Part shown: piece by piece, positions 8,635 through 16,446 of the stretch
How the letters are laid out: every line of letters starts with the position of its first letter
Position numbering within the stretch: the stretch's first letter is position 1
Assembly: GCA_022484685.1 (NCBI GenBank)
Contig: JAKVKY010000001.1
Location: forward strand, 1-64,000
Direction: 5' to 3'
Source of the DNA: Acidaminococcaceae bacterium
GTDB lineage: Bacteria; Bacillota; Negativicutes; Acidaminococcales; Acidaminococcaceae
DNA length: 64,000 bases
Program-made: the position numbers and the translations under genes
The notes under the pieces: generated by a model
Databases searched by the model: none
What the model was told of the DNA's origin: nothing
The model's input: the letters and a program-made list of their open reading frames with translations, nothing else

Positions 8635-9519
8635 ATTTTAACATTCAAGGAAGTTGCCGTTGACGATAAGGAAGTTTTTGAACGCTACATTTCAAAGCCG
8701 CATTTTATGGGTTCGGAATGTGCTTTCACCAATATGTTCCTGTGGCGTAATTACTTTCATACTTACTGGACTATCAATCATGATTTTTTACTGATTAAGG
8801 TGAAGAAGAGCGGTAAGGACTTTTTCCTGCAGCCGTTTGGCGGCAAGGACGAAGATTTGCCCCTGGTGATTGCCGAACTGCGTACGTACCATGACAATAA
8901 GGGCTTTGAGTTCCACGGCATTTACGAAAATTCCCTGGAACGGCTGCGTCCCTTTGCGCCTACGGCTAACTATGAGGAAGACCGGGACAACTGGGACTAT
9001 GTCTATCTGCAGACGGACCTGGCTAACTTGTCCGGACGTAAATATCACGGCCAGAAAAACCATTATAATTCTTTTAAAAAGACTTATCCCGATTATACTT
9101 TTGAAATGATAAATCCCAATATTTATGCGGAGTGCCTGGCTTTCGGTGAAGAATGGTGCCGCAAGAAGATGATGGACGACGAAAGTGTGAAGTACGAGAT
9201 TCAGGCTATCCGGGAAGCCTTTGTTAACTTTAACAAGCTGGGTTTGCGAGGCGGCGCCATCCGCGTGGGCGGTAAGATCAGAGCCTTTAATTTCGGCCGC
9301 AAGATTAACGACGAGGTGGCCGTACAGCATGTGGAAAAAGCGGATCCCGATATCCGGGGTCTCTATACTGCTATCTGTAAGGAATGCGCGGAAAAGATCT
9401 GGCCGGACGTGAAATATTTGAACCGGGAAGAGGACATGGGCCTGCCGGGATTAAGGAAGGCCAAGGAAGATCTGCACCCGGTGACCATGGTCAAAAAGTT
9501 TAATCTGTTTATTAAGTAG
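8635..9519 (+). CDS. DUF2156 domain protein (lysyltransferase-like), probable ATT start
   Basis: This is a DUF2156 protein, related to the GNAT-fold catalytic part of phosphatidylglycerol lysyltransferases; its substrate is unknown. The first ATG (8707) would remove the conserved opening (LTFKEVAVDDKEVFERYI, then FTNMFLWR). In frame, the only plausible initiation codon between the stop at 8620 and that ATG is ATT at 8635, seven bases after a perfect AGGAGG. This gives 294 residues, the usual family length. The GNAT-like half contains LRGGAIRVGGKIRAFNFG and YLNREEDMGLPGLRKAKE. It is followed closely by a second acetyltransferase, so the two may act together. Confidence 0.8.
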   Translation: MLTFKEVAVDDKEVFERYISKPHFMGSECAFTNMFLWRNYFHTYWTINHDFLLIKVKKSGKDFFLQPFGGKDEDLPLVIAELRTYHDNKGFEFHGIYENSLERLRPFAPTANYEEDRDNWDYVYLQTDLANLSGRKYHGQKNHYNSFKKTYPDYTFEMINPNIYAECLAFGEEWCRKKMMDDESVKYEIQAIREAFVNFNKLGLRGGAIRVGGKIRAFNFGRKINDEVAVQHVEKADPDIRGLYTAICKECAEKIWPDVKYLNREEDMGLPGLRKAKEDLHPVTMVKKFNLFIK

Positions 9520-9528
9520 GTGGACAAG

Positions 9529-10710
9529 ATGGAATATAAGATGGTGACTCCGGCAAACCTGCCGCAGGTCATGGCTTTGTGGGATTATTGTTTTGAAAAG
9601 GCGGGAACGCCTTTCTTTGAGTGGTATTTTCGCGAGTACTGTTTAAAAAATAATCTGGTCCTGGGCGGTTTTGCAGAAAAGACCGGCCAGCTGGCCAACA
9701 TGCTCCATCTGAACCCCTATAATGTCTTGCTCAGGGGACGCAAGGAAGCCATGCCGTATATCGTAGGGGTGGCTACGGCGCCGGGAGCCAGGGGCAGGCA
9801 TCTGACCTTGCCGCTGCTGGAGATGGCGTTTAAGGTGCTCCGGGGCGAGCGGTTTGCTTTCGCCCTGCTCATGCCGATTAATGCCGGCATCTACCTGCCT
9901 TATGATTTTGCCTATTGTTATTATAAACACGAGTACCGTCTGCCTCTGACGGCTTTAGAGGTGCCGCCGCCGCTGGAGGATACCAGGGTGGAACTGGTGC
10001 CGGATCTGGACGCTGGTTATTTTGCACCGGTCTATGCGGCTTTTGCCGCCCGGCATCACGGTATGGTGGTGCGGAATGAATTCCAGTGGCACAAGCTTTT
10101 AACCGTGCATAAGCTGGAAAAGGTCCAGGCCGCGGTAGCTTTTACCGGGGACCAGCTGACCGGTTACATGTTCTATACCATTGAGGATAAAACTTTTAAG
10201 ATTCAGGAACTGCTCACGGTGAACCTGGATGCCAAGCGGGCTTTACTGTGGTATGCCAAGGGCCATCTCTCTCAGGCGGAGAATCTGGAGTGGGGCGCAC
10301 CGGTGGATGATTTAACCTATCTGGATTTTAAGCAGCAGGACTATACAGGTGCTCTGGCGCCGTTCATGATGGCCCGGTGTATCGATGCCACCACGGCTTT
10401 ACAGGCCCTGACCGTACCGGAGCAGATGCCGGACGGGGAAGTAACACTGCTGTTAAGCGATAAACTGATTGCGTTAAATAACTATCTGCTGAAGCTGACT
10501 ATCAGCGGGGGGCAGCTGACCATGGCGCTCACCGATGCAGCGGAGGATGTGACCATGGGCATGGGAGCCTTTACCCAGTTATACTTTGGCGCCTTTAGCG
10601 CCACGGAACTGGCCGCCGCCGGCAGGATCAAGGTGGCGGCGCCGGAAAAACTGGCGTTCCTGGATGCTCTTTTCCCCAAGCAGAGAAACTATATTAACGA
10701 ATATTATTAA
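9529..10710 (+). CDS. Eis-like GNAT family N-acetyltransferase
   Basis: This is a 393-residue protein with a tandem GNAT arrangement. The acetyl-CoA-binding region (YIVGVATAPGARGRHLTLPLL, about residues 78-98) replaces the usual Q/RxxGxG/A with a degenerate version. The C-terminal third (from about residue 290) looks like the sterol-carrier-type domain of Eis acetyltransferases. The ATG at 9529 has AGGTGG six bases upstream and is preferred over the GTG that abuts the previous stop. It is probably co-transcribed with the DUF2156 gene. The substrate is not predictable. Confidence 0.75.
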   Translation: MEYKMVTPANLPQVMALWDYCFEKAGTPFFEWYFREYCLKNNLVLGGFAEKTGQLANMLHLNPYNVLLRGRKEAMPYIVGVATAPGARGRHLTLPLLEMAFKVLRGERFAFALLMPINAGIYLPYDFAYCYYKHEYRLPLTALEVPPPLEDTRVELVPDLDAGYFAPVYAAFAARHHGMVVRNEFQWHKLLTVHKLEKVQAAVAFTGDQLTGYMFYTIEDKTFKIQELLTVNLDAKRALLWYAKGHLSQAENLEWGAPVDDLTYLDFKQQDYTGALAPFMMARCIDATTALQALTVPEQMPDGEVTLLLSDKLIALNNYLLKLTISGGQLTMALTDAAEDVTMGMGAFTQLYFGAFSATELAAAGRIKVAAPEKLAFLDALFPKQRNYINEYY

Positions 10711-10791: not shown

Positions 10792-13700
10792 ATGACAAGT
10801 ATCAGACGTGTGTATGTGGAGAAGAAAGAAGCTTTTGCGGTAGAGGCGCAAGGTTTATGGGCTGACCTGGCTCATAATCTGCTCATCAAAAACTTACAAA
10901 GCGTACGGATCCTGGCCCGTTATGACGTGATGGGTCTGTCGGCGGCTGAGTTTAAACAGGCGCTGACCCTGATCTTGTCCGAGCCGCCGGTGGATAAGGT
11001 GCTGACGACTTTAAAACCGGCTAAGGATGAACATGTTTTTGCCGTGGAACTGCTGCCCGGTCAGTACGACCAGCGGGAAGATTTCGCAGAACAGTGCATC
11101 CAGCTGATTACCCAGAAGGAAAAGCCGGTGGTAGCTGCCGCCAAGGTCTACGTGCTGAAAGGCAAGCTGAGCAAGGCCGATATCGCCAAGATCAAACATT
11201 ACTGCATTAACCCGGTGGAAGCCAGGGAAGCGGCGCTGGAACTGCCCAAGACTTTGGAAGAAACTTTAACCGAGCCGGGTGCCGTAGCGAAGATGACAGG
11301 TTTTTTAAAACTGTCCAAGAAGCAAGTGGCAGCCCTGCAGCAAGAACTGGGCCTGGCCATGAGCGTGGAAGATTTGCTCTGGTGCCAGACATATTTTAAA
11401 AAATTAAGACGGGAACCGACCATCACCGAGATCAGGGTGTTGGACACCTACTGGTCCGACCACTGCCGGCACACCACTTTCATGACCTGCCTGGACAAGG
11501 TGGAGATTGCGGAGGGACCCTTTAACACGCCGATTCAGGCGGCTTTTGCCAAGTATCAGGCTGATCGGGATTTCGTGTACGGGAAAAATACCACCCGTCC
11601 CATGACCCTGATGGACCTGGCCAGCATCATCACCAAAAAATTAAAGAAACAAAAACTGGTCAAAGACCTGGATGAGTCAGAGGAAATTAATGCCTGCTCC
11701 ATCGTGGTACCAATCAAGGTGGACGGGAAAAAAGAAAACTGGCTGGTGATGTTTAAGAACGAAACGCACAACCATCCTACGGAGATTGAACCGTTTGGCG
11801 GCGCTGCTACCTGTCTGGGGGGCGCTATCAGGGATCCTCTCAGCGGCCGCAGCTATGTGTATCAGGCCATGCGGATCACCGGTGCGGCAGACCCCCGGGT
11901 GGCCATTGAAAAAACTCTGGCCGGCAAGCTGCCTCAGCGCAAGCTGACTATTGGCGCTGCTGCCGGTTACAGCGCGTACGGCAACCAGATTGGTCTGGCT
12001 ACCGGCTATGTGCATGAATATTATCACGACCGTTTTGTAGCTAAGCGGATGGAGGTGGGCGGCGTCATCGGCGCTGCGCCCCAGGATGCCGTACGCCGGG
12101 AACGTCCGGCGGCCGGGGATATCGTAGTCCTGTTAGGCGGACGTACCGGTCGCGACGGTATCGGCGGTGCTACCGGTTCTTCCAAGGAACATACGGTGGA
12201 GAGCCTGGCTACCTGCGGTGCCGAAGTGCAAAAAGGTAATCCGCCTACCGAACGTAAGATTCAGCGTCTGTTCCGTAATCCCAAGGTGACGCTGCTCATT
12301 AAGCGCTGCAATGATTTCGGCGCCGGCGGTGTTTCCGTGGCCATTGGCGAACTGGCCGACGGCCTGACGATTGACCTGGACAAGGTAACCAAGAAATATG
12401 AAGGCCTGGATGGTACCGAACTGGCTATCAGTGAATCCCAGGAGCGGATGGCGGTAGTCATTGCGGCTAAGGATTGGGCCAAGTTTAAACGGGCGGCGGC
12501 TAAAGAGAACCTGGAAGCCACCGTGGTGGCTAAAGTTACGGCAGAGCCGAAGCTGATCATGCGCTGGCGCGGTCAGGAAATCGTCAACATTGAACGGGCC
12601 TTCCTGGATACCAACGGCGTGGCACAACATGCCAAGGTGAAAGTTGCCAAGATTAAGGGCGCCTCGGCCTGGGATCAACTGCCGGCTGCCGTGAAGAGTA
12701 CTAAAAAATTAGAGCAGGCCTGGCTGGCGAACTTGCGCCGCCTGAATGTCTGCAGCGAAAAAGGGTTGTGTGAACGTTTTGATAGTACGATCGGCCGCGG
12801 CACCGTGGAGATGCCGTTTGGCGGTAAATATCAACTGACGCCTACCGAAGGTATGGTAGGTCGTCTGCCGGTGCTGGGCGGAACTACTACGACCGCCAGC
12901 GTCATGGCCTGTGGTTTTAATCCGGACGTGGCCTGCTGGAGTCCCTTCCACGGCGCCATGTACGCGGTGACGGAATCTATCGTGCGGGCGGTAGCCCTGG
13001 GGGCAGACCCGGATCAGCTCCGCTTCTCCCTGCAGGAATATTTCCAGAAACTGGTCAAGGCCAGTGACTGGGGCCAGCCGTTAGCGGCACTGCTGGGCGC
13101 CAACTCTGTGCTGGATGCCATGCAGGTTCCGGCTATCGGCGGCAAGGACAGCATGTCCGGTACTTTTATGGACAAGCATGTTCCGCCTTCCTTACTCAGT
13201 TTTGCCGTCGGCATCATCGATGGTGACAAAGCTGTCAGCAGCGAGTTTAAAACTGCCGGCAGCCAGGTCATCTTTATCGCTTGTCCGGTCCTGGAAGGCG
13301 GCGTCCTGGATTTTGCAGCCCTGCGTACCAACCTGCGGGCCGTGCATAAACTAATGACCAAAGGTAAAGTTTTAAGTGCGACCGCCGTAAAAGAAGGCGG
13401 TATTGCCGCAGCAGTTACCACCATGTGTCTGGGTAACGACCTGGGCTTTAGTTTTGTGAAACCTTTCCCGGATCCGGAATGTCTGTTTACCCTGCAGCCG
13501 GGCGGTATCCTTTTGGAAGTGGCGGCAAAGGCGGACCTGGAGAAATTGTTGAAGGACCTGGATTATCTGCTGTTAGGTAACACCACGGCAGCTGGTAAGC
13601 TGGTTATCAATGACTGTGAGTTGACGCAGCAGGAATTACTGGCTGCGTATACGGATACCCTGGAACCCATTTTCCCGTCTCATACCACAGGCGCAGTGAC

Positions 13701-14565
13701 GCCTGAGGACATCGACCAGCCGTTGACGTACAGTAAGCTGCCGTTGACGGCGCCGGTGAATATTGCCAAACCCCGGGTTTTCATCCCGGTATTCCCTGGC
13801 ATTAATTGTGAGTACGACAGCGCCCAGGCTTTTGAGGCTGCCGGCGCCAAACCGGAAGTTTTTGTGGTCCGCAACCTGACGCCCCAGGCGGTAGAAGAAT
13901 CTATAGCGGCCATGGTGAAGGGCATTAACCAGTCCCAGATTATCATGATCCCCGGTGGTTTTAGTGCCGGTGATGAACCGGACGGCAGCGGCAAGTTTAT
14001 TGCCACCATGCTGCGTAATCCCCGTATCGCGGCGGCGGTCCAGGATTTGCTCCAGGTTCGCGACGGTCTGATCCTGGGTATCTGCAACGGCTTCCAGGCC
14101 CTGATTAAGTTAGGCCTGCTGCCTTACGGCGAGATTCGTCCATTGACCGCCACGGCGCCCACGCTGACCTTTAATACGATCGGCCGCCATGTGAGCCAGA
14201 TGGTTTACACCCGGGTGGTTTCTAATAAATCGCCCTGGCTGGCAGGGGTAGAACCGGGCCAGATCTTTGCCATCCCTGTTTCCCACGGTGAAGGTCGTTT
14301 CTATGCACCGGTACCGACCATTAAAAAACTGTTTAAGTCCGGTCAGATTGCCACCCAGTATGTGGACCTGAACGGGAAACCGACCATGGAAAGTCCTTAT
14401 AATCCTAACGGTTCCCTTTACGCGGTAGAAGGTTTGACCAGTCCGGATGGACGCGTGCTGGGAAAGATGGGGCACAGTGAACGGTATGTGCCGGGTCTCT
14501 TCCAAAATATTTACGGCGCTAAGGATCAGCAGTTGTTTAAGAGCGGCGTCAAGTATTTTAAGTAA
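10792..14565 (+). CDS. purL: Phosphoribosylformylglycinamidine synthase, single-chain PurL
   Basis: This 1257-residue enzyme makes FGAM from FGAR, glutamine and ATP in purine synthesis. It is the large fused form, not the PurS/PurQ/PurL split set typical of Bacillus. An N-terminal PurS-like domain is followed by the first AIR synthase half with ETHNHPTEIEPFGGAATCLGG (about residue 323), the second half with GGTTTTASVMACGF and IGGKDSMSG, and a C-terminal glutaminase from about residue 995. The nucleophilic Cys is in GICNGFQ near residue 1098; SHGEGRF and the tail GHSER follow. GGAGGGG precedes the ATG. No other pur genes are near, and its terminator is interrupted by an insertion sequence. Confidence 0.97.
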   Translation: MTSIRRVYVEKKEAFAVEAQGLWADLAHNLLIKNLQSVRILARYDVMGLSAAEFKQALTLILSEPPVDKVLTTLKPAKDEHVFAVELLPGQYDQREDFAEQCIQLITQKEKPVVAAAKVYVLKGKLSKADIAKIKHYCINPVEAREAALELPKTLEETLTEPGAVAKMTGFLKLSKKQVAALQQELGLAMSVEDLLWCQTYFKKLRREPTITEIRVLDTYWSDHCRHTTFMTCLDKVEIAEGPFNTPIQAAFAKYQADRDFVYGKNTTRPMTLMDLASIITKKLKKQKLVKDLDESEEINACSIVVPIKVDGKKENWLVMFKNETHNHPTEIEPFGGAATCLGGAIRDPLSGRSYVYQAMRITGAADPRVAIEKTLAGKLPQRKLTIGAAAGYSAYGNQIGLATGYVHEYYHDRFVAKRMEVGGVIGAAPQDAVRRERPAAGDIVVLLGGRTGRDGIGGATGSSKEHTVESLATCGAEVQKGNPPTERKIQRLFRNPKVTLLIKRCNDFGAGGVSVAIGELADGLTIDLDKVTKKYEGLDGTELAISESQERMAVVIAAKDWAKFKRAAAKENLEATVVAKVTAEPKLIMRWRGQEIVNIERAFLDTNGVAQHAKVKVAKIKGASAWDQLPAAVKSTKKLEQAWLANLRRLNVCSEKGLCERFDSTIGRGTVEMPFGGKYQLTPTEGMVGRLPVLGGTTTTASVMACGFNPDVACWSPFHGAMYAVTESIVRAVALGADPDQLRFSLQEYFQKLVKASDWGQPLAALLGANSVLDAMQVPAIGGKDSMSGTFMDKHVPPSLLSFAVGIIDGDKAVSSEFKTAGSQVIFIACPVLEGGVLDFAALRTNLRAVHKLMTKGKVLSATAVKEGGIAAAVTTMCLGNDLGFSFVKPFPDPECLFTLQPGGILLEVAAKADLEKLLKDLDYLLLGNTTAAGKLVINDCELTQQELLAAYTDTLEPIFPSHTTGAVTPEDIDQPLTYSKLPLTAPVNIAKPRVFIPVFPGINCEYDSAQAFEAAGAKPEVFVVRNLTPQAVEESIAAMVKGINQSQIIMIPGGFSAGDEPDGSGKFIATMLRNPRIAAAVQDLLQVRDGLILGICNGFQALIKLGLLPYGEIRPLTATAPTLTFNTIGRHVSQMVYTRVVSNKSPWLAGVEPGQIFAIPVSHGEGRFYAPVPTIKKLFKSGQIATQYVDLNGKPTMESPYNPNGSLYAVEGLTSPDGRVLGKMGHSERYVPGLFQNIYGAKDQQLFKSGVKYFK

Positions 14566-14602
14566 GTCAGGCTGGCGCAGTTGGTTTCAGGATAAATTAA
14601 AA

Positions 14603-14623
14603 CCCGGCGGGAAAAATTTCCTG
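14603..14623 (+). terminator. Left half of the purL terminator, split by an IS
   Basis: CCCGGC (14603-14608) plus GGGAAAAATTTCCTG would pair with GCCGGG and a T run that now lie beyond the IS, at 15997-16008. Rejoining the flanks gives a near-perfect 12-bp hairpin followed by five T. Confidence 0.8.
14609..14623 (+). repeat. Left 15-bp direct repeat flanking the IS
   Basis: GGGAAAAATTTCCTG is repeated exactly at 15983-15997. It is the apparent target duplication, though 15 bp is longer than the 3-5 bp usual for IS3 elements. Confidence 0.75.
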
Positions 14624-14640
14624 TGAACTGGTAAACTTTA

Positions 14641-14680
14641 AGTAGACATTCATAAAAAAATGGATGTCTACTCTTTTTTA
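14641..14680 (+). terminator. Terminator-like hairpin in the IS left end
   Basis: AGTAGACATTCAT (14641-14653) pairs with ATGGATGTCTACT (14660-14672), with one G-T wobble and a six-A loop, followed by CTTTTTT. It would block read-through from purL into the transposase, and its 5' arm contains the inner part of the terminal inverted repeat. Confidence 0.75.
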
Positions 14681-14722
14681 TGCTTAAATAGATATAGGAT
14701 TTGTATTTGAAAGGAGAAAACC

Positions 14723-15106
14723 ATGGGATGTTTAAAGGGTGTTCCTCATCATAAATGGACAAAAGAAGAAAAGCTTAGAATTGTAAAAATGCATCTAGAA
14801 GAGCATATTCCCATTAGGAAAATAGAGAAGAAAGAGCACATCAATCATACCCTAGTGAGTGCTTGGTGTAAACGTTATGCAGAAGAGGGTGAAGTTGCCC
14901 TTGAATCACATAAGGGTAATAAATTTGCAGCCTTACATACAAGCAAGTCTTTGAGCGAGGTAGAACGCTTACGTTTAATCATACTTAAACAGGAATTGGA
15001 ACTCGCACGCCTAAAAAAAGGCTACTTTGTGAGAGGAGTTGGTGCAAACAAGGAATACGTTATTGGCAAAGGGCAGATTTTGAAATCATCGAAGCCTTCA
15101 AAATAA
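14723..15106 (+). CDS. IS3 family transposase OrfA
   Basis: This 127-residue protein carries an N-terminal helix-turn-helix (about residues 10-60: WTKEEKLRIVKMHLEE, then INHTLVSAWCKRYAEEG) that binds the IS ends. A leucine-rich helical segment follows (LSEVERLRLIILKQELELARLKK) and serves for multimerisation in this family. AAAGGAG lies eight bases upstream of the ATG. An A7 run at 15013-15019 near its 3' part is a typical -1 frameshift site. Readers that slip leave this frame for orfB; those that do not continue another 30 residues to a stop. Confidence 0.9.
   Translation: MGCLKGVPHHKWTKEEKLRIVKMHLEEHIPIRKIEKKEHINHTLVSAWCKRYAEEGEVALESHKGNKFAALHTSKSLSEVERLRLIILKQELELARLKKGYFVRGVGANKEYVIGKGQILKSSKPSK
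15013..15019 (+). other. Probable programmed -1 frameshift site
   Basis: The heptamer A-AAA-AAA followed by G is slippery in the orfA frame. A one-base backward slip enters a frame that is open from here through the whole of orfB, giving an OrfAB fusion transposase spanning 14723-15945. Confidence 0.75.
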
Positions 15107-15114
15107 GATATCCC

Positions 15115-15945
15115 GTGATGCTTCTTTGCAAGGTATTAGGCGTAAACAGATCCGGATTCTACAAATGGCGTTCGCGTCACGGAAAGCTAAATAGCTATGA
15201 AACCAACAGGCAGGTCCTTACCGGAATGCTGAAAGAGCTCCACTTAAAGCATAAGACTTGGGGATATCACCGCTTGGCTCAAGCCATACGTGAAAACACC
15301 GGGTGGAAGTTCTCAGATAATCTGGCCCATAAGTGTTGCAAGCAGGCAAAGATTTATTCTCTGGTACGCCATTATAAATACAGAAAGCCTGGAGCGGAAA
15401 GCGTTAGGTTACCAAATATCGTGCAAGGTAAATGGATAGCCAAAAGACCGTTGCAGATAGTTGTGTCAGACATGACTATCCTCAAGACGAAGAAAGGGAA
15501 CTATGAGTGGACGTTACTTGTGGACACCTTTAACAACGAGATTATCTCGCATGCTTTCTCTGCGCGCAGGGGAGATTCAGGGACATACTATAAATGTTTA
15601 GCAGACCTTATAAGGATGCTCCCTAAAAAACAAAAGCAGACGGCCCCAACAGTTTTGCACACCGATCAGGGAGCCGTCTACTCGTCCATGGCCTTTTACG
15701 AGGCCCATAGATATTATAATATAAAACGGTCAATGTCGCGAGGGGGTACCCCGACGGATAATCCAATTATTGAAGCCTTGAATGGTTGGATAAAGGACGA
15801 ATTATATGTGGACTTCGGGCTAAAAACCACGAACGACGTGCCCGGAGTGCTTAATAAATATGTTAAATATTTCAACAATAAGCGTTCTGCAGCTGCATTG
15901 GGATACAAAACCCCAATTCAGTACAAGACCGAATTGGGGTTTTGA
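15115..15945 (+). CDS. IS3 family transposase OrfB (DDE integrase domain)
   Basis: This is the catalytic half of the transposase, 276 residues if started at the GTG/ATG pair but more likely made as an OrfAB fusion, because the frame is open upstream to the frameshift site. An HTH_21-type segment (MLLCKVLGVNRSGFYKWRSR and HLKHKTWGYHRLAQAIRE) precedes the rve integrase core. The DDE residues are visible: Asp in IVVSDMTIL, Asp in VLHTDQGAVYSS and Glu in PIIEALNGWIKDEL. It ends KTPIQYKTELGF, with coding sequence that also forms a terminator palindrome. The protein appears intact. Confidence 0.92.
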   Translation: MMLLCKVLGVNRSGFYKWRSRHGKLNSYETNRQVLTGMLKELHLKHKTWGYHRLAQAIRENTGWKFSDNLAHKCCKQAKIYSLVRHYKYRKPGAESVRLPNIVQGKWIAKRPLQIVVSDMTILKTKKGNYEWTLLVDTFNNEIISHAFSARRGDSGTYYKCLADLIRMLPKKQKQTAPTVLHTDQGAVYSSMAFYEAHRYYNIKRSMSRGGTPTDNPIIEALNGWIKDELYVDFGLKTTNDVPGVLNKYVKYFNNKRSAAALGYKTPIQYKTELGF

Positions 15946-15950
15946 GTTTT
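15907..15950 (+). terminator. Terminator palindrome at the orfB 3' end
   Basis: AAAACCCCAATTC (15907-15919) pairs perfectly with GAATTGGGGTTTT (15931-15943) around an 11-base loop. It overlaps the last codons of orfB and its A/T flanks could terminate in both directions. Confidence 0.8.
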
Positions 15951-15982
15951 CTTATTGTGTCTACTTTTGCTTGACAGGTTCA

Positions 15983-15997
15983 GGGAAAAATTTCCTG
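15983..15997 (+). repeat. Right 15-bp direct repeat flanking the IS
   Basis: Exact copy of the repeat at 14609-14623. It continues into CCGGGCTTTTT, the right half of the interrupted purL terminator. Confidence 0.75.
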
Positions 15998-16055
15998 CCG
16001 GGCTTTTTCGTAGGCCGTGCAATTTTGTCTGGAATTAGCAAGTTTTTGTGGCGCA

Positions 16056-16093
16056 ACCAAGTTACGATGGCTCGACCAAATTACGATGGCGCA
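16056..16093 (+). repeat. Two tandem 19-bp repeats
   Basis: ACCAAGTTACGATGGCTCG (16056-16074) is followed by a second unit differing by one base over its first 16 bases. The surrounding 16009-16139 holds no gene that I can support. Confidence 0.6.
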
Positions 16094-16139
16094 CTAAAAT
16101 TGCTGTTGGGTATTTCTTTTTTCCGACGCAGTTTCCTGC

Positions 16140-16403
16140 TCACAGTTTAAATAAGACACTGCTCTGGGACTTTTTCGGTTTTTCATCGGCCAGGGGATGC
16201 ATTTTTCTCTCCGGGTGGTCAATCAGTTCCATTTCCTCGGGACGGATCTTGCCGCGTTTACTTTCAAAATCATCAATGATCCATTTCAGGATCTGTTCAA
16301 TTTCCTTGTTCACGGAACGTCCGTTATAGTCAGCGATAACCTTCATTTTTTTCATAACCAGCGGATGAATCCGGAGGGTAAAACGTGCTGTTGCCATTGT
16401 CAT
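16140..16403 (-). CDS. Arc/CopG-like ribbon-helix-helix DNA-binding protein
   Basis: This 87-residue protein has a ribbon-helix-helix N-terminus (TARFTLRIHPLVMKKM, then ADYNGRSVNKEIEQILKWII), the dimeric fold of Arc, CopG and many antitoxins. The remaining tail is charged and of unknown role. The ATG at 16403 has GGAGG (16410-16414) six bases upstream, so the longer in-frame start at 16421 is rejected. It is isolated: no toxin-like gene lies next to it, so an antitoxin role is unsupported. A candidate promoter and direct-repeat operator lie upstream, suggesting autoregulation. Confidence 0.8.
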   Translation of the reverse strand: MTMATARFTLRIHPLVMKKMKVIADYNGRSVNKEIEQILKWIIDDFESKRGKIRPEEMELIDHPERKMHPLADEKPKKSQSSVLFKL

Positions 16404-16446
16404 GATAAACCTCCACGCCATTGAGAAGCCATTTCCAGCTCTGCGA

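Follow-up and report, generated by a model that had tools for sequence, protein, structure and literature searches.

The stretch of DNA analysed here (hereafter the window, 64,000 nucleotides from the start of contig JAKVKY010000001.1 of an Acidaminococcaceae bacterium) carries an insertion sequence (IS) of the IS3 type within the terminator of purL, bordered on both sides by an exact 15-bp target site duplication (TSD). DDE transposases are textbook fixed-stagger machines, and IS3 elements usually duplicate 3-5 bp. In the close lineage of this element, the duplications are exact, stand in a terminator context, show dyad symmetry and are accompanied by arms of near-constant length. On the basis of these features, we favour, with a probability of roughly three in four, a reading in which the IS3-type transposase would target bidirectional intrinsic terminators and measure from the hairpin base or from the flanking A and T tracts, so that the stagger would vary. 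The main value of the analysis is this quantitative rule, obtained from sequence alone.

The element in the purL terminator

The two copies of GGGAAAAATTTCCTG that flank the element match at 15/15 positions, adjoin its ends without a gap and constitute the sole direct-repeat family within positions 14500-16150. When the element and one repeat are removed, the joined flanks (AAAACCCGGCGGGAAAAATTTCCTGCCGGGCTTTTT) read AAAA-CCCGGC-GGGAAAAATTTCCTG-CCGGGC-TTTTT and fold into a hairpin of -21.8 kcal/mol (z -4.5 against shuffled sequences), which is located between purL and a convergent gene for an Arc-like protein. To judge from the repeats, the empty purL terminator would have held a single copy of the 15-mer. 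A first-pass annotation of this DNA had described an IS3-type element with 15-bp direct repeats, located exactly inside this terminator, and had proposed that deleting 14624-15982 and one repeat restores a hairpin followed by a T run. The sequence, the fold and the profile matches bear out the former statement, and the folding energy and z-score the latter. The features of the locus are the following:

10792-14565, plus strand: purL (phosphoribosylformylglycinamidine synthase; Pfam GATase_5, AIRS_C and FGAR-AT_linker), whose 3' terminator is the target
14599-14608, plus strand: left half of the target terminator in the joined-flank fold (A-tract 14599-14602, outer arm CCCGGC 14603-14608)
14609-14623, plus strand: left TSD copy, GGGAAAAATTTCCTG (inner stem and loop of the hairpin)
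14624-15982, plus strand: IS3-type insertion sequence of 1359 bp, with ends TGAACTGGTAA and TTGACAGGTTCA
14641-14679, plus strand: terminator-like hairpin with T6 at the left end of the element, oriented against transcription arriving from purL
14723-15106, plus strand: OrfA, 127 amino acids, helix-turn-helix
15013-15020, plus strand: A7G slippery site for a -1 frameshift from OrfA to OrfB, as read from the sequence
15031-15945, plus strand: OrfB, DDE transposase domain (Pfam rve; NCBIfam transpos_IS3)
15906-15944, plus strand: right-end hairpin where OrfB closes (terminator of the element)
15983-15997, plus strand: right TSD copy, GGGAAAAATTTCCTG
15998-16008, plus strand: right half of the target terminator (arm CCGGGC 15998-16003, T-tract 16004-16008)
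16140-16421, minus strand: convergent gene with an Arc-like DNA-binding domain, which renders the target terminator bidirectional

Judging by its architecture, the element is an intact IS3-type insertion sequence. Its outermost bases (TGAACTGG... from 14624 and ...CAGGTTCA up to 15982) agree with the TG...CA terminal inverted repeats of the IS3 family, and a further copy in this genome terminates at the same bases. OrfB matches the Pfam profile rve (2.5e-11) and the NCBIfam IS3 model NF033516 (transpos_IS3; 196 bits, with a cut-off of 160), and by reading, its catalytic triad is DD35E (SDM / HTDQG / PIIEAL). The layout of the two open reading frames (ORFs) is also that of IS3-type elements, with OrfB in the -1 frame relative to OrfA, behind the A7G run at which a -1 frameshift is predicted to join them. 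The element departs from the 3-5 bp duplication that is typical of, but does not define, the family, as the TSD is 15 bp at both copies; the filing under IS3 therefore follows from the transposase and the architecture only. OrfB is 23% identical to that of either IS150 or IS3 of Escherichia coli K-12, and both K-12 references, on long branches, lie apart from the clade that the window element forms with its relatives. Membership of the IS30 family (as for IS1630) was rejected, since the only matching models were of the IS3/IS481 type, together with a weak IS66 TnpA match for OrfA. The IS1202 family was likewise rejected, given the two ORFs, the IS3 model match and the TGA ends.

The hairpin at the left end of the element (67-nt fold, dG -17.3, z -4.9) probably restores, at least partly, the termination of purL, whose own terminator has been split. 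This hairpin and its T-run are conserved in the relatives found in two other genomes, G015 and G025 (loci L080-L083 and L087), which suggests an insulating terminator under selection. Terminators between convergent genes may offer a low-cost landing site, where the element's own left-end terminator would partly replace the one that was split. An orphan hairpin with 81% identity over 51 bp to the left-end hairpin was also observed (L006/L092, G002:C9:44334-44384), with no transposase nearby, and this likeness probably reflects convergence on a common terminator shape.

Duplication length in the close lineage

The close lineage comprises six sites, namely the window element (own1), the second copy in the same genome (own2) and four pairs of element ends in G015. 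Copy own2 is represented by two further partial matches, both reaching contig ends, with the left 155 bases of the element on contig C54 and the right 131 on C37; these ends are 99% identical to the window element. Read outward, C37 carries CCTCT-ATGCTTTTTGGGCGT ahead of the right end of the element, and C54 carries ATGCTTTTTGGGCGT-AGAGG-TTTTT beyond the left end. The TSD of own2 is therefore the exact 15-bp ATGCTTTTTGGGCGT, unrelated in sequence to the repeat of own1, and the joined flanks AAAAAAA-CCTCT-ATGCTTTTTGGGCGT-AGAGG-TTTTT form a terminator between convergent ORFs. The presence of a different exact 15-bp repeat at own2 shows that the duplication was generated by insertion, and rules out a chance 15-bp repeat. 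The same genome also holds a second, diverged IS3-type element (L069/L090, G000:C30, OrfB at 9461-10348; 44% OrfB identity), which belongs to a clade without terminator targeting; a clean TSD was looked for at this element and none was found, partly similar sequence being present on both sides.

In G015, a genome of the same family, the element is collapsed in the assembly, where contigs terminate in four left and four right ends of it. The terminal bases of each left flank match the start of exactly one right flank, and the resulting TSDs, CTTAGG (6 bp), GCTTTGC (7 bp), GTTTTTCC (8 bp) and GGCAGTCAC (9 bp), lie in terminator-like hairpins. The arms beyond these repeats are mutually complementary (GTCCG/CGGAC, GCACG/CGTGC and CGGG/CCCG; partly in TCATA/CCTGA), which provides independent support for the pairing of left and right ends. 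Length variation is also found in zrk7 (Mycoplasmatota), whose complete chromosome (CP076021.1) carries two copies, 100% identical according to the search, with TSDs of 6 and 9 bp, each within a terminator; an assembly origin of the variation is thereby excluded. All resolved sites of the close lineage show exact TSDs. The first-pass annotation had suggested, as alternatives, an element directed at terminators and a staggered cut of an unusual kind, and both together are supported, as the copies of the window genome, G015 and zrk7 all lie in terminator-like hairpins with TSDs that are variable and above the IS3 norm. It had also singled out 3-5 bp duplications at other copies as evidence to the contrary; the window element and its near kin show 15, 15, 6, 7, 8 and 9 bp, and TSDs of 3-5 bp appear only in relatives at ~45% OrfB identity, in separate clades.

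The relation between TSD and terminator was measured at the six sites (n=6) as the number of bases that separate the insertion point from the nearest A-run to its left and the nearest T-run to its right. The arms thus defined are 6/6 at one site and 5/5 at the other five, although at one of these (G015b) the value of 5/5 depends on accepting AA and TT as runs, and becomes 19/8 if runs of three are required. The tract-to-tract distances of 16, 17, 18, 19, 25 and 27 correspond to TSDs of 6, 7, 8, 9, 15 and 15 bp (r 0.99; a fit as good in 2/720 permutations), with a difference of 10 at five sites and 12 at own1. The centre of the TSD lies 0 to 0.5 bp from the hairpin dyad wherever the script located the hairpin; at G015b and G015d it picked different local hairpins, and the centring at these two sites was judged by inspection. 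Among random positions, those where both arms measure 5-6 have a frequency of ~0.001 in the window and of ~0.002 in the pieces from G015. The targets are sequence-diverse terminators instead of one repeat family, and do not qualify as repetitive extragenic palindromic (REP) sequences. A TSD equal to the terminator length minus ~10 bp, placed symmetrically on the dyad, is a well-fitting hypothesis for these sequences, rather than an independently tested rule.

Relatives were sought in 59 genomes of the family, ~380 of the class and ~400 of the phylum, as well as in plasmids, phages and IMG/VR, and among all these the same element ends were found only in G015, G025 and remnants in G189. G025 presents three unpaired half-sites, each at 11-14 bp from a T or A tract, which are compatible with the rule and do not constitute a test of it, and G031 presents a single right end. 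The copies in G189 are degraded or rearranged, with no clean TSDs among them, and the matches in plasmid MO-XQ and a faecal phage contig have no resolvable ends. G189 also contains elements of ~64 bp resembling miniature inverted-repeat transposable elements (L143, C52:10801-10864; L149, C91:6095-6158; L140, C128:1083-1146), which consist only of the two ends of a related IS (TGAACCGGTAAAG...CTTGACAAGTTC) and form a near-perfect hairpin. Internal-deletion derivatives of 174 and 359 bp are present as well, on C37 and C98 of G189.

Distant relatives, mechanism and alternative explanations

A tree of OrfB relatives with 36-62% identity (57 loci) places the elements of Mollicutes first, then the window element, and then two well supported sister clades; several branches are long. 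The members of one of these clades, found in Bacilli, also insert into terminators, yet every resolved copy shows a 3-bp TSD in the loop, with tract distances from 11 to 22. Those of the other clade are mostly located elsewhere than in terminators, and their TSDs are of 3-5 bp; one locus (L050) is an exception inside this clade. An A-tract and a T-tract are both near the insertion at 14/17 sites of the terminator groups versus 0/34 of this last clade, and the folding energies of the two sets differ (p 1e-5), with group labels that were given after the sites had been inspected. On the tree, these labels need two or three changes, versus about eleven when they are shuffled. At equal tract distance (16-19), TSDs measure 6-9 bp in the lineage of the window element and 3 bp in the Bacilli clade, which ties the rule to the transposase, and not to the target alone. 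These contrasting rules among relatives (3 bp in the loop; no terminator targeting) represent natural transposase variants with which the control of the stagger could be probed. A related element of Acholeplasma oculi (L127, NZ_FUZK01, G381:C7), split by a frame change, occupies the middle of the perfect palindrome TGATACAATTGTATCA, which has no terminator T-tract, and its TSD is 3 bp (AAT).

In the proposed mechanism, the insertion target would be a bidirectional intrinsic terminator formed by an A-tract, a GC-rich inverted repeat and a T-tract. The ends of the element would join the target strands symmetrically about the dyad, ~5 bp inside the A and T tracts and near the base of the hairpin, and the stagger would equal the interval between the joining points, which is 15 bp for both of the long terminators hit in this genome and 6-9 bp for the shorter ones of G015. 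Two sub-models fit. Each transposase subunit may read a half-site, made up of an A or T tract plus ~5 bp, in inverted orientation; alternatively, the enzyme may act on an extruded hairpin or cruciform, measuring from its base. On a cruciform, the attack points would be equidistant from the junction at any hairpin length, and one active complex could give both 6- and 15-bp staggers; a constant attack distance would not easily be allowed by a rigid DDE complex on B-form DNA. Site G015d, with a weak hairpin and good tracts, favours the half-site sub-model, and G015b, with a good hairpin, a poor left tract and a doubtful status as a terminator, favours the structure sub-model. A strict form of the latter, in which an extruded hairpin or cruciform would be attacked ~5 bp above each base and a single fixed complex would yield staggers between 6 and 15 bp, determined by the size of the target alone, is for us a tentative proposal with the odds somewhat against it.

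Several points weigh against variable staggers measured on terminators. The rule has been derived from the very sites used to state it, the close lineage has just six of them, and 5/6 (own2 and the four G015 pairs) rely on contig ends that were joined by the analyst. Furthermore, own1 is off the minus-10 rule (minus 12), G015b has no left A-run of at least three and may not be a true terminator, and the hairpin of G015d is weak (dG -1.8). The poor left tract of G015b and the weak hairpin of G015d also imply that neither feature alone is strictly needed.

The alternative that survives best, although we consider it unlikely, is that each element makes a fixed long staggered cut (15 bp here, ~7-8 in G015), in the manner of IS1202, and that terminators attract it solely through their A/T tracts or their bendability. 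The TSDs of exactly 15 bp at both copies of the window genome would fit this explanation, as would the long, roughly constant TSDs of IS1202 (PMC10132070), but identical copies in zrk7 give 6 and 9 bp, and one type of element in G015 gives 6, 7, 8 and 9 bp, each centred on the dyad and with near-constant arms. It is far less probable that a normal 3-bp TSD was produced in the loop, as is invariably the case in the Bacilli relatives, and that repair or gene conversion in the palindrome subsequently lengthened the repeats, because the 15-bp repeats are not self-complementary and still no base differs between the two copies, the same length of 15 bp is found at two independent sites, and the six long repeats are all exact and dyad-symmetric. 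Finally, a coincidence or artefact, with insertion between two 15-mers of a pre-existing tandem terminator or a misassembly, might be invoked given that own2 is split across contigs and the empty site is deduced and not observed, but it is hardly credible when the same pattern is seen at six sites of two genera, with sequences that differ, as well as in a complete chromosome.

Comparison with known systems

The window element resembles the IS3-family references IS150 and IS3 of E. coli in its helix-turn-helix OrfA, its rve/DD35E OrfB, the -1 frame relation with an A7G run and the TG...CA ends, and differs from them in its terminator targeting and in a TSD of 15 bp (6-9 bp in its kin) instead of 3-5 bp. 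Palindromes are also targeted by the IS3-type elements IS1397, ISKpn1 and ISPsy8, which insert in extragenic REP palindromes with a specificity attributed to the transposase (PMC1525189). Unlike these, the window element uses sequence-diverse terminators and generates long, variable TSDs; the nearer parallel to the IS1397-type elements is provided by the Bacilli relatives, with their 3-bp TSDs in the loop.

Long duplications are known from elements with other transposases. The IS1202 family, with a single TnsB-like transposase of ~390-510 amino acids and TGT ends, includes one subgroup with TSDs of 16-28 bp, and no target was found for this long-TSD group (PMC10132070). The window element shares the long TSD, but has two ORFs instead of a single large TnsB-like transposase. 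For IS1549 and IS1634, variable TSDs of 8-514 bp are reported in the consulted passages of a 2008 review, according to which no mechanistic model had been proposed (PMC2266710). Their transposases belong to another family, and these passages contain no link to terminators. If true, a stagger set by target structure would offer a mechanistic model for such unexplained TSDs of variable length in IS families.

The closest precedents for the two main features of the window element come from different families. IS1272 (IS1182 family) inserts in terminator hairpins without primary sequence preference, and removes part of the stem-loop with no target duplication (PMC4923244, PMC5678879); it thus shares the terminator targeting, and contrasts with the exact TSDs of every resolved site of the close lineage. 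IS1630 from Mycoplasma fermentans (IS30 family; Calcutt et al. 1999) is known, from the title of that paper as cited in PMC3317919, for a variable duplication of inverted repeats, with TSDs of 16, 23, 25 and 26 bp in strain M64; it shares the variable inverted-repeat TSD, and its transposase family differs. No report of terminator targeting combined with a variable long TSD in an IS3-type element was found in a literature of partial coverage, ISfinder not included. Terminator targeting (IS1272) and a variable inverted-repeat TSD (IS1630) are hence known separately in other families, and what appears to be new here, as far as could be found, is their combination in an IS3-type element.
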